A DNA stretch of 64,000 bases from Bifidobacterium breve. GTDB lineage: Bacteria; Actinomycetota; Acidimicrobiia; Acidimicrobiales; Ilumatobacteraceae. Position 1 is the first letter of the stretch, and each line of letters starts with the position of its first letter. Where the stretch lies: NCBI GenBank assembly GCA_945886445.1, contig CAMCZG010000001.1, forward strand, positions 1 through 64,000. Reading direction: 5' to 3'. Below are positions 26,572-30,750 of the stretch, piece by piece. Position numbers and translations under genes: made by a program. Under the pieces are notes generated by a model. The model searched no databases, had not been told where the DNA came from, and worked only from the letters and a program-made list of their open reading frames with translations.

Positions 26572-27450
26572 ATGGTTGCAATTGGTATAGATGTAGGTGG
26601 CACCAAGTGCCTGGCAGTTGCACTTGCTAACGATGGGTCCATTCTCGATTCACTCACGCTTCCCACTGCCACAGGCGTAGGCATAGTTGAAGAAGTTGCC
26701 GATTTATGCACGGCTCTTGCGTCGCGCGTGGGCAAAGCAGCAACGTCACTCGGGGTGGGCATGCCCGGAACAGTGTCGCATGACGGCGTTGTGTATCTTG
26801 CACCACACCTTCCCGAAGTGCGCCAGTTACCTATGCATGCGCTGCTTTCAAGCCAACTAGGTATTCCTGTTGTTGTAGACAACGATGCAACATGTGCCGG
26901 TGTTGCTGAGTGGAGAAATGGTGCAGCACGAAATTGCGATAACGCTCTAGTCATTACTATTGGCACAGGAATTGGTGTAGCACTGATAGCCAATGGAAAA
27001 GTGTTGCGTGGTCATCACGGGTTTGCCGGTGAAAGCGGACACCACATTGTGATGCATGGCGGGGAAGAGTGCCCATGTGGTCGACGCGGATGTTGGGAGC
27101 AATATGCATCGGGCTCGGCGCTACGGCGCATGGCCAATGGTGTGAGCGGTGAAGAAGTTTTGTTGCGCGTGGTGCAAGAAGACAAAGAGGCGAAACGTGT
27201 TCTCGAAGAGTTTGCAAGCTGGGTAGCTCTTGGTCTTTTCAACTTGGTCAATACGCTTGACCCACAAGTCATAGTGTTGGGTGGGGGCCTCGGGTCGTCT
27301 GGGGTGTTGCGACATTTTGTAGCCGATGCATTGCACAAACAAATGCCGCCGTCAGACTTGCGCCCGGCGCCACTATTGCTCACTGCACAATTAGGCCCCG
27401 AAGCCGGTGCAATTGGGGCGGCAGTGCTGGGCAAAGAAGTTATTGAGTAG
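26572..27450 (+). CDS. ROK-family sugar kinase, probably glucokinase
   Basis: A protein of 292 residues. The phosphate loop IGIDVGGTKCLAVAL, the DNDATC active-site Asp region, TIGTGIGVALI and the zinc-binding ROK signature CPCGRRGCWEQYASG are all present. The likely reaction is ATP- (or polyphosphate-) dependent glucose phosphorylation, as in actinobacterial glucokinases; a repressor role is excluded because there is no N-terminal helix-turn-helix. Its last 11 bp overlap the convergent glycerol kinase gene. Confidence 0.87.
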   Translation: MVAIGIDVGGTKCLAVALANDGSILDSLTLPTATGVGIVEEVADLCTALASRVGKAATSLGVGMPGTVSHDGVVYLAPHLPEVRQLPMHALLSSQLGIPVVVDNDATCAGVAEWRNGAARNCDNALVITIGTGIGVALIANGKVLRGHHGFAGESGHHIVMHGGEECPCGRRGCWEQYASGSALRRMANGVSGEEVLLRVVQEDKEAKRVLEEFASWVALGLFNLVNTLDPQVIVLGGGLGSSGVLRHFVADALHKQMPPSDLRPAPLLLTAQLGPEAGAIGAAVLGKEVIE

Positions 27451-28900
27451 TGCGTACTCGCTGCACAGCGTTCAGCCACTGGGCGTGAGCTGTGTTGGCA
27501 ACGCTTTGGTTGTCGTTCTTGGGTGAATAGGTCATATCGCTCATCCAATGAGTGGCAATTTCCTCCATGGTCGACCATGCCCCAATGCCAAGACCAGCGA
27601 GGTATGCAGCACCGCAGGCAGTTGTTTCACGGTCAACGGGCAATACAACAGGAACCTGCAATTGGTCGGCCTGGAACTGCATGAGAAATGCATTGTCGGT
27701 GGCTCCACCATCGGCACGTAGCTCGGTCAAGGTAATGCCTGTTGCCTTCGCCATTGCTTCAATCACGTCGCGCGTTTGAAATGCCACCGACTCTAAAGTT
27801 GCTCGTGCAAGATGGCCACGATTGGTACCGCGCGAAATACCAAAGATGCCACCGCGTGCGTATGGATCCCACCACGGGCTGCCGAGCCCGGTGAGTGCAG
27901 GCACCATTACCACTCCTGCGGAATCGGGAACCGATAAAGCCAGTTCTTCTACTTCTTTTGCATTATCAATGATGTGCAATCCGTCGCGCAGCCATTGCAC
28001 CGCGGCTCCGGTCACAAAAATGGATCCTTCAACTGCATAGGTGGTGGTGTCGTTAATGCGCCACGCAACAGTATTGAGCAAACCGTCGACCACCGAAGGG
28101 CACGTGGTGCCCACGTTCATCAGCACGAAACTGCCAGTTCCGTAAGTATTTTTTGCAGTACCGGCAGTAAAGCAGGCTTGGCCAAAAAGTGCAGCCTGCT
28201 GGTCTCCGGCAATACCAGAAATAGGAATGCCTCGAGGAATGCCTTCAACATTTGTTGTTGCAAAGATGCCACTTGAGTTGCGCACTTCGGGAAGCGCATT
28301 CATGGGAATGGAAAGAAGTGAACACAACTCTTCGCTCCATGCATGTTTTTGAATGTCGTACAGCATGGTTCGACTTGCATTCGATTCATCGGTAGCAAAT
28401 GTGGTGCCACCCGAAAGCCTCCACAAGATCCACGAGTCAATGGTTCCGAGTGCAAGTTGTGCAGTGGGCTTTACTACGCCGTTGCGTAGCAGCCATTCTG
28501 CTTTCGTGGCAGTGAAGTAGGGGTCGAGAACGAGGCCCGTGATACGCCGAACTGCTGGTAATTCGCTGGCCAACTGGTGACAACGGTCTGCGGTGCGGCG
28601 ATCTTGCCAAACAATTGCGGGTGCAAGTACTTCATCACTTGCGCGGTCCCATGCCACAAGAGTTTCGCGTTGGTTGGTAATGCCCAGTGCAATAGGTGGT
28701 TCGCTCAGTTGGCTGAATACTTCGCGCAATGTAAAGAGAACTGCGCTCCAAATTTCTTCGGCATCATGTTCTACCCATCCAGGCTGAGGAAAGTACTGCG
28801 TGAATTCCTTGTACGAAGAAAGCGAGGGTGCACCATCGAGAGAGATTGCGCGCGCTCTGACTCCGGTTGTTCCGGCGTCGATTGCAACGATGAAGGCCAT
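27440..28900 (-). CDS. glpK: Glycerol kinase
   Basis: A protein of 486 residues with the FGGY fold: VAIDAGTTGVRARAISLDG, NQRETLVAWDR, WQDRRT, GTIDSWILWRLSGG, GDQQAALFGQ, TYGTGSFVLMN and GGIFGISRGTNRGHL. These match GlpK better than the second kinase at 12620. It makes sn-glycerol-3-phosphate for GlpD. TAGTTT, which includes the stop codon of the upstream regulator, ends 6 bases before the ATG, so an internal leaderless promoter is possible. It lies 9 bp after the response regulator, which may control it. Confidence 0.9.
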   Translation of the reverse strand: MAFIVAIDAGTTGVRARAISLDGAPSLSSYKEFTQYFPQPGWVEHDAEEIWSAVLFTLREVFSQLSEPPIALGITNQRETLVAWDRASDEVLAPAIVWQDRRTADRCHQLASELPAVRRITGLVLDPYFTATKAEWLLRNGVVKPTAQLALGTIDSWILWRLSGGTTFATDESNASRTMLYDIQKHAWSEELCSLLSIPMNALPEVRNSSGIFATTNVEGIPRGIPISGIAGDQQAALFGQACFTAGTAKNTYGTGSFVLMNVGTTCPSVVDGLLNTVAWRINDTTTYAVEGSIFVTGAAVQWLRDGLHIIDNAKEVEELALSVPDSAGVVMVPALTGLGSPWWDPYARGGIFGISRGTNRGHLARATLESVAFQTRDVIEAMAKATGITLTELRADGGATDNAFLMQFQADQLQVPVVLPVDRETTACGAAYLAGLGIGAWSTMEEIATHWMSDMTYSPKNDNQSVANTAHAQWLNAVQRVRTTQ

Positions 28901-28909
28901 GCCTAGAAA

Positions 28910-29632
28910 CTAGTGCTGTTTGACCTTTTCGCCGTCAAAGCGGTAGCCAAGGCCGCGAACGGTGACAACATATCGGGGTTCGTCTGGGCGTACTTCAATT
29001 TTCGTGCGCAGACGGCGCACATGAACGTCGACAAGTCGACCATCGCCGAAGTATCCGTATCCCCATACCCGGTCGAGAAGTGTTTCACGAGCAAACACCT
29101 TGTTGGGGCTGGTTGCTAGCTCGCAAAGTAAGCGAAACTCAGTACGAGTAAGAGAGATTTCTTTGCCTTCTTTGTAGACGCGACCTTCATCGGGACGAAT
29201 TTCGAGATGTCCGAAGTGCAATGCGTTCTCGAGGTGAAATGCCCCATTTGCTCGGCGCAGAAGCGCGTCCATGCGTGCAACAAGGTGTTGGCAGTTCACT
29301 GGATGATCGTGGTAATCGTCAGCGCCAGCTTCAAGGCCTTGCAAAATGGTGTCGGAGTTCTCGGTGACAATATAAATAAATGCAGAGGTTATATTTCTTA
29401 TTTGTTTGACCAAGTCGCTTGTATCGCCGTTGAGTGCAGCAAAATTCATGATGACAACAGTGGGTTGCTTACTGCGTACTGCTGCAAGCGATTCATCTAC
29501 TGTACGTACTACCTGCAGTTCGTAGTTCCCTTTTTTTTCGGCAAATGAATGAATGAGTTCGGCCTCAATGTGTGGGGAGCCTTCAACAAGGAGCACTGCT
29601 ATTGGAGATTCAGCGGCGCGTCCTTTGCTCAT
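28910..29632 (-). CDS. OmpR-type response regulator with a degenerate receiver domain
   Basis: A protein of 240 residues. The C-terminal winged helix is intact (LTRTEFRLLCELA, VFARETLLDRVWGY, VDVHVRRLRTKIE, YVVTVRGLGYRF). The N-terminal receiver keeps the fold and the Thr (IVTEN, T89), but the phospho-acceptor Asp is Asn (VVIMNF, N63), the acidic pair is Glu-Gly (LLVEGSP, residues 17-18), and the conserved Lys before Pro is His (DDYHDHP, H109). It should therefore not be phosphorylated in the normal way. No sensor kinase is adjacent. TAGACT 8 bases upstream and AAAGG precede ATG 29632. Orphan, phosphorylation-independent regulators of this sort occur in actinobacteria. Confidence 0.9.
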   Translation of the reverse strand: MSKGRAAESPIAVLLVEGSPHIEAELIHSFAEKKGNYELQVVRTVDESLAAVRSKQPTVVIMNFAALNGDTSDLVKQIRNITSAFIYIVTENSDTILQGLEAGADDYHDHPVNCQHLVARMDALLRRANGAFHLENALHFGHLEIRPDEGRVYKEGKEISLTRTEFRLLCELATSPNKVFARETLLDRVWGYGYFGDGRLVDVHVRRLRTKIEVRPDEPRYVVTVRGLGYRFDGEKVKQH

Positions 29633-29665
29633 AGACCTTTAGTCTAGGGCACTTGTAGAGGGCAA

Positions 29666-30457
29666 TTAACTGTTGGAGTTTCGGATGAGATCTTGTATTT
29701 GAGTAAATACACCTGGGGGAGATGCCAAAATAGCCGACGGCTGAATGTCGCCACCGTCGATACTGCCAATGATGCAACCAGATTCTTTGGCAATGAGTGT
29801 TCCTGCGGCAAGATCCCATGGAAAAAGATGTTCCTCGTAGTACGCGTCGTAACGCCCTACTGCAACAAAACATAGGTCGAGCGATGCTGAACCGAGGCGA
29901 CGAATGTCGCGAATTTTCGCAATGATTTTTGGAATACGCGCTGCCTGAATGAGGCGATTATCTGGTGAATAATTAAACCCAGTAGCAATGAGGCAGTGGG
30001 CAATATCATTTATCTCATTGCAGTGAATACGTGTGTCGTTCAAAAAGGCGCCACCACCTCGTGTGGCGGTGTAGGTCTCGCTGAGCGGAGGGCAAAAGAC
30101 CACTGCAGCAAGCTCGCCGTCGGCGTCGTGTGCCCCCAGCGAAACAGTCCACGTGGGGAGGTCGTACAGAAAATTGGTTGTCCCATCGATGGGGTCAACG
30201 AACCAGGTGATGCCGCTGGTGCCGGTGTGTCCGCCACCTTCTTCGGCAACGATGCTGTCGTCGGGGCGAGCAGCACGAAGTGCGGTAATGATTGATGCTT
30301 CGGTGAGTTTGTCGTACTCAGTCACCATGTCGGTAGAGGTCGACTTTGTGCTTACTTCACGAAGCCCGCGCTTGCGCCCGGCAAGTGCAACTGCGCCAAC
30401 TTCATGGGCAATAGTGGTAGCCAAGTTCACGAGGTCTACAGCAAGTGACGTGGTCAT
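29666..30457 (-). CDS. Inositol monophosphatase family protein
   Basis: A protein of 263 residues with the metal-binding motifs of the family: VAEEGGG, VDPIDGTTNFLYDLP and the C-terminal PWDLAAGTLIAKESG. Substrates of the family include inositol-1-phosphate, fructose-1,6-bisphosphate, histidinol-phosphate and PAP. The presence of PimB-like genes in the region makes inositol phosphate a plausible substrate but does not prove it. ATG 30457 has AGGA about 6 bases before it; it overlaps the stop of the preceding small membrane gene by 4 bp. Confidence 0.87.
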   Translation of the reverse strand: MTTSLAVDLVNLATTIAHEVGAVALAGRKRGLREVSTKSTSTDMVTEYDKLTEASIITALRAARPDDSIVAEEGGGHTGTSGITWFVDPIDGTTNFLYDLPTWTVSLGAHDADGELAAVVFCPPLSETYTATRGGGAFLNDTRIHCNEINDIAHCLIATGFNYSPDNRLIQAARIPKIIAKIRDIRRLGSASLDLCFVAVGRYDAYYEEHLFPWDLAAGTLIAKESGCIIGSIDGGDIQPSAILASPPGVFTQIQDLIRNSNS

Positions 30458-30750
30458 TGGTTGTCCTGCAGTTCTTTCCATTCTCCTAAAGCGCGCAGTA
30501 CCAGCACAGCAACTACGCCCATGCCAGCAGCAGTAATTGTTGCACCCGAGAACACGCCAATGCCTTTGGGAACATCGCATGCTCCGGAACATTGCAGGTC
30601 GACAAGCGCAAAGCCAATGAGGCCGCCTGCAATGCCACCAAAGACGATGGAGCAAAACGCCGCTACACGTGCACCTCGGGGAGGAAGTGCAGAAAGTGGG
30701 CGATCAAGTGGTGGGGGGTCGTTGTGGGTGGGGGTGGGAAGCGAAGACAC
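30454..30750 (-). CDS. Small membrane protein, two helices, Pro-rich N-terminus
   Basis: A protein of 98 residues: a Pro-rich cytoplasmic N-terminus (about 28 residues), one hydrophobic segment AAFCSIVFGGIAGGLIGFAL, a short loop with CSGAC, and a second segment ATITAAGMGVVAVLVLRAL. I recognise no family. It is translationally coupled to the inositol monophosphatase gene by a 4-bp overlap, and its start is only 26 bp from the divergent dinB start, so the promoters of the two genes must overlap. Confidence 0.6.
   Translation of the reverse strand: MSSLPTPTHNDPPPLDRPLSALPPRGARVAAFCSIVFGGIAGGLIGFALVDLQCSGACDVPKGIGVFSGATITAAGMGVVAVLVLRALGEWKELQDNQ

Follow-up and report, generated by a model that had tools for sequence, protein, structure and literature searches.

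The locus described here raises the question of what becomes of a response regulator whose receiver has lost its phospho-acceptor. The regulator is encoded on the minus strand at positions 28910-29632 of the window, by which we mean the whole 64,000-nucleotide stretch of DNA that was analyzed. Its open reading frame is intact and specifies a 240-aa MtrA-like regulator of the OmpR/PhoB type with a pseudo-receiver. The pseudo-receiver (residues 11-129; 29246-29602, minus strand) was recognized by the Pfam receiver model Response_reg, although barely (PF00072; 31.9 bits against a cut-off of 30.2). AlphaFold2 predicted a complete (beta-alpha)5 fold for it (mean pLDDT 85, pTM 0.83), and the best PDB match was MtrA (2gwr, TM 0.83-0.89). 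The winged-helix DNA-binding domain (residues 138-234; 28931-29221, minus strand) matched Trans_reg_C (PF00486) with 96.8 bits, and 89 of its 97 positions (92%) were invariant within the clade of congeneric species that includes the window, which bears out the claim of a preliminary description that this domain is intact. A search for viral relatives found none.

Compared with canonical orthologues, the pocket of the pseudo-receiver reads E17-G18, N63, T90, E91, Y107, H110, and V112. E17-G18, N63, T90, Y107, and H110 were read directly. At codon 18 (29579-29581, minus strand), the Asp that is the second acidic residue and binds metal has been replaced by Gly, such that the E-D pair is now E17-G18; codons 63 (29444-29446, minus strand) and 110 (29303-29305, minus strand) specify Asn for the phospho-acceptor Asp and His for the conserved Lys, respectively. 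Outside the clade, Asp63 and Lys110 were present in all 99 distinct homologues and Asp18 in all 98 that cover the site. The three substitutions of the preliminary description are thus real, with the one correction that the His lies at residue 110 and not at 109. Furthermore, the T+1 residue (position 91), Ala in 99/99 homologues outside the clade, is a bulky acidic Glu or Asp in most clade members, and residue 109 is Asp or Glu. The Y-T coupling pair is retained, with position 90 as Thr or Ser and position 107 as Tyr or Phe. With a recognizable receiver domain and N63 at the acceptor site, the protein classes by sequence as an aspartate-less receiver (ALR), and through D18G, D63N, and K110H it lacks the combination of acidic pair, Asp, Thr/Ser, and Lys that defines a canonical response regulator. 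A second set of changes lies in the stretch H108-x-H110-P-V-N-C114-Q-H116, which runs from the end of beta5 to the start of alpha5 (29285-29311, minus strand). Its canonical counterpart from position 108 to 114 is L-x-K-x-F-A-P, from which H108, H110, V112, N113, and C114 all differ; these five residues are invariant across all eight species with data, whereas H116 is Leu in one (G009). At position 116, on the dimer face, Glu has become His, and part of the chemistry of this face is therefore altered.

The preliminary description had proposed a tree of homologues as a check on whether these changes are fixed, and had regarded changes private to this sequence as a sign of error or decay. They are not private. 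The window genome and its congeners (JABMMV010000063, CANFUE010000018, RGCG01000020, and JAGWWV010000010) belong to a small-genome genus of Acidimicrobiales, and the window clade comprises nine species, one of which (G005) has no data at the regulator. Seven species have the gene intact, and in an eighth it is divided between two contigs. G18, N63, and H110 occur in every clade member covering each site, and across species their codons show synonymous turnover only: GGC, GGA, GGG, and GGT at codon 18, AAT and AAC at codon 63, and CAT and CAC at codon 110. This synonymous variation, together with recurrence in eight species, rules out a sequencing error or private change and indicates that the changes are fixed and maintained. 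Paralogy, with a canonical copy elsewhere, was likewise ruled out by synteny, the regulator tree, and a whole-genome search.

The surroundings of the gene show how it came to lie beside glpK. Across the family the gene order is dinB, a small ORF (sm98), an inositol monophosphatase (IMPase) gene, the regulator, a variable interval, glpK, and a ROK kinase gene. In the window, the IMPase-family gene (PF00459) is the conserved upstream neighbor (29666-30475, minus strand, start approximate), and glpK, encoding glycerol kinase (27440-28900, minus strand; NCBIfam GlpK, 612.9 bits), is the ancestral downstream neighbor. Thus, the regulator is the positional orthologue of the MtrA-like regulator of Acidimicrobiales. 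In relatives it is followed by a histidine kinase, a Germane (LpqB-like) lipoprotein, pfkA, a small protein, and glpK; in most genera this interval holds a HAMP-HisKA-HATPase kinase, the Germane lipoprotein, a phosphofructokinase on the opposite strand, and a small membrane protein, and the distance from regulator to glpK is usually 3.4-4.7 kb. In the window, synteny places all of these genes at a single junction of 9 bp (28901-28909), the spacing already reported, and the regulator lies this close to glpK because the intervening genes were deleted. Since glpK is a family-wide downstream neighbor, its adjacency says little about glycerol control, and the earlier argument from adjacency to control of glycerol use is not supported. 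The two genes now probably share one transcript, and for that reason glycerol control is still conceivable. Upstream of the regulator, a -10-like element, TAGACT (29641-29646, minus strand), lies 8 nt before the ATG and is conserved in all clade members examined; judged from the sequence, it is a possible leaderless promoter for the regulator, and a leaderless transcript has been described for mtrA of Streptomyces (PMC5487470).

The preliminary description had noted that no sensor kinase is near. This is true throughout the 130-kb contig, and the orthologous kinase is absent from the entire window genome, which is 92.7% complete; within that completeness, the genome-wide kinase search rules out that the kinase was relocated. 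Within the genus, G003 and G010 alone have the orthologous kinase. The other kinases of the clade are paralogues with at most about 40% identity, each beside its own regulator, and in the window genome the one nearest to the lost kinase (32% identity) likewise adjoins its own regulator. Four of the six HATPase matches in the window genome are kinases beside canonical regulators (contigs C2, C3, C33, and C41). The match on C15 we take to be GyrB, and that on C4 is presumably a HisKA_2-type kinase (HHRVKNNL motif), which probably pairs with an ANTAR-type regulator on C9. On contig C16 (L166:3199-3879, minus strand), the same genome encodes a further OmpR-type regulator whose receiver is degenerate: the acidic pair is missing, Asn stands in the acceptor region, and Thr replaces Lys. 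This gene follows one for glutamine synthetase at a distance of 14 bp and is perhaps a GlnR-like orphan.

A survey of the locus in 43 genomes revealed a graded series of losses. The full module is present in eleven genera with genomes of 1.8-6.2 Mb. The four genomes of genus g5 (1.5-1.7 Mb) have lost the lipoprotein, pfkA, and the small gene but keep a full-length kinase. In genus g9, most of the sensor domain is gone from the kinase in the eight genomes that have both flanks (1.2-1.8 Mb; a ninth is interrupted by a contig end), and the same is true of G003; about 310-370 aa of these kinases are matched, compared to 450-476 in full-length ones. The deletions in g9 (L181-L188) and G003 (L063) are independent, and the regulator and kinase core are intact in both. 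In G010 (L062:9182-11148), the kinase lacks its C-terminal ATP-binding G box and the regulator lacks its first ~37 codons; glpK of this genome is split between two frames, which reflects either decay or in part an assembly error. The kinase is lost while Asp and Lys are kept in G064 and G114 (genus g3) and in G001, whose regulator carries Arg for Glu17 and Ser for Pro at D+4. The kinase-less g3 orthologues (L179 and L180), which retain Asp, Lys, and Phe at K+2, offer a natural control for asking if the receiver changes through loss of the kinase by itself. Loss of the kinase together with erasure of the pocket is seen in the window clade only. Finally, the regulator module is wholly gone from G013, G014, G036, and G011, apart from a pseudogene remnant of the regulator C-terminus (HVVGVRGLGCRVDG) between the IMPase gene and glpK in the last (L161:9045-9120).

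In the regulator tree, the genus falls inside the canonical group of Acidimicrobiales with support of 100/100 (97/99 for the DNA-binding domain alone), and the stem of the clade is long, at 3.8 substitutions per site for the receiver compared to 0.5 for the DNA-binding domain. In a tree built from ten syntenic proteins, the genus divides into the window clade and {(G001,G011),(G003,G010)}, each fully supported (100). As this species tree separates G001 from the window clade, the kinase losses in the two halves of the genus were parallel events, and a further loss took place in g3. Although the regulator tree joins G001 to the window clade, it does not reject the alternative (p-AU 0.099), and the species tree, which groups G001 with G011, G003, and G010 (100), rules out G001 as a direct, ancestor-like intermediate. 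Phe112 at K+2 is replaced by Val both in the window clade and in G001. Val at this site shifts CheY toward active conformations (PMC12632262), a parallel that is no more than suggestive, since Val is found in a kinase-linked paralogue too.

Selection on the two domains was compared by pairwise Nei-Gojobori dN/dS within the clade. The receiver had values of 0.09-0.29 and the DNA-binding domain values of mostly 0.01-0.05, while a canonical paralogue of the same species gave 0-0.05 for its receiver and ~0.02-0.08 for its linker and DNA-binding domain (0.13 in one pair). Constraint on the receiver is thus weaker by a factor of about five, yet it is still far from neutrality, and the balance of constraint is reversed relative to the canonical paralogue, with an output domain that is as tight or tighter and under strong purifying selection. 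Consistent with this, the clade keeps 63 of 75 outgroup-conserved columns in the DNA-binding domain but only 19 of 91 in the receiver. Within the receiver, alpha4-beta5-alpha5 is better conserved than the remainder (25/37 compared to 29/82 positions, p=0.0014), as it also is in canonical homologues.

Altogether, as read from these genomes, the chemistry of Asp phosphorylation and the kinase are gone and the protein has been maintained. We consider it probable that the regulator is a pseudo-receiver factor derived in place from an MtrAB-LpqB-like response regulator, independent of phosphorylation, constitutive on its old targets, and still dimerizing via alpha4-beta5-alpha5. The sequence shows that four genes, among them those for the kinase and its lipoprotein partner, are missing between regulator and glpK, and that the Mg2+/phosphoryl pocket has been lost through D18G, D63N, K110H, and, in most members, a bulky acidic T+1 residue. 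The regulator would no longer receive a phosphoryl signal; with the pocket residues lost, control should not run through Asp phosphorylation, a point on which the preliminary description is supported. The DNA-binding dimer may be held, or easily reached, via the retained alpha4-beta5-alpha5 face, aided by changes such as F112V, and the protein would act constitutively on the old target set, its output being set mainly by its amount. Val at K+2 favors active conformations in CheY, and the T+1 residue is normally small (PMC12632262). An MtrA D56N/Y102C variant that cannot be phosphorylated still binds DNA, and it reverses the mtrB-knockout phenotype at least in part (PMC6265350). However, MtrA of Streptomyces venezuelae no longer binds DNA when it carries just the D53N change (PMC9045223), so that other receiver changes must compensate here; candidates for these are guesses. 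The altered dimer-face residue at position 116 also speaks against this reading. Input from a ligand, redox state, or Ser/Thr phosphorylation is possible.

A more specific version of such input is that the pocket was rebuilt as a sensor, in which His108, His110, Cys114, mostly His116, and Glu17 bind metal, or Cys114 reports redox. The invariance of H108, H110, V112, N113, and C114 in eight species despite a diverging receiver points this way, as do precedents for direct control without phosphate in RitR (Cys128), Hp1021 (Cys), and JadR1 (ligand) (PMC12632262). Nevertheless, only eight related species are compared, the stretch is part of the alpha4-beta5-alpha5 face, which is conserved in general, G009 has Leu in place of H116, and the Cys residues of RitR and Hp1021 occupy positions other than that of Cys114; we regard this reading as unlikely. 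In a wider scenario, the receiver would have become such a metal/redox pocket (His108, His110, Cys114, His116, and Glu17) once the kinase was gone, making the regulator a one-component sensor, and sister lineages would have shed the system from the outside in, beginning with the lipoprotein and continuing with the sensor domain, the kinase, and the regulator; this is likewise unlikely. That the regulator instead serves as a dedicated local regulator of glpK, responding to glycerol or glycerol-3-phosphate, would fit the 9-bp spacer and shared strand, hence a probable single transcript. This we hold to be improbable, as glpK is the ancestral downstream neighbor also of canonical regulators under kinase control, conservation of the DNA-binding domain speaks for retention of an older regulon, and the 64-kb window, operon included, contains no exact match to the MtrA-type direct repeat (GTNAC-N6-GTNAC).

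Decay of the locus in relatives (the missing N-terminus in G010, the remnant in G011, and nothing left in G013, G014, and G036) might suggest that kinase loss made the receiver useless and that the gene is a decaying relic. Such a relic is strongly disfavored, and in our estimate very improbable, by a reading frame that is intact in seven species and complete across the contig break in the eighth, by dN/dS far below 1 in both domains, and by the near-invariant DNA-binding domain. Nor is there much to be said for phospho-signaling retained through an unusual acceptor or a paralogous kinase: the Y-T coupling pair T90 and Y107 is kept, and Ser/Thr phosphorylation is known for GlnR (PMC12632262), but the acceptor Asp, the metal-binding Asp, and the Lys are all lost and T+1 has gone from a uniform Ala to Glu or Asp, which leaves this explanation a very small chance.

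Among known systems, MtrAB-LpqB gives the best family matches, MtrA for the regulator and MtrB for the lost kinase, and the gene order in relatives and the best structural match agree. The regulator differs in having neither phospho-acceptor, kinase, nor lipoprotein; the adjacent MtrB-type kinase and LpqB-type lipoprotein are absent in the clade and present in relatives. The NCBIfam MtrA model gives 176 bits for the window regulator and 266 for a canonical orthologue (L142), against a cut-off of 300, and the relatives' copy of the kinase scores 214 bits with MtrB, against 450; as these scores lie below the curated cut-offs, we call the regulator MtrA-like and not MtrA. RitR of Streptococcus pneumoniae, the aspartate-less archetype and likewise an orphan OmpR-type regulator, also has Asn at the acceptor site (PMC4395418), and keeps the first acidic residue while losing the second. 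However, RitR retains Lys103 (PMC4395418), where the window regulator has His, and its Cys for redox dimerization lies in the linker (PMC12632262), whereas the Cys of the window clade is at the start of alpha5. Among aspartate-less receivers, Asn is the second commonest replacement (16%), the second acidic residue is usually lost, and the Lys position remains basic in about 70% (PMC4395418); the change of Lys to His places the window regulator on the unusual side. GlnR, ChxR, NblR, and JadR1 are also phosphorylation-independent orphan OmpR-type regulators, from lineages different from that of the window: GlnR dimerizes via its Asp, ChxR has Glu, and JadR1 binds a ligand (PMC12632262, PMC4395418).

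In its history, the regulator closely resembles the OmpR-type CosR of thermotolerant Campylobacter (with HP1043 of Helicobacter pylori), where the adjacent kinase gene cosS is absent in the lineages that have Asn or Ser for Asp51, and where the DNA-binding domain is conserved and the receiver variable (PMC3938529). Here too, the kinase stands beside the orthologue in relatives and is missing where the Asp is lost. In contrast to CosR, the window regulator belongs to an unrelated lineage and has in addition exchanged Lys for His and Asp18 for Gly, and its relatives preserve intermediates at the same locus. Pseudo-receivers are common and their control is largely unknown (PMC12632262), and their stepwise origin is seldom seen; here, one locus in one family preserves the stages, which links the loss of signaling to small genomes and means that natural variants could be exchanged to test in what order the events took place. 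Thus, the regulator is a further case of an established kind, and its value lies in an unusually complete evolutionary series.
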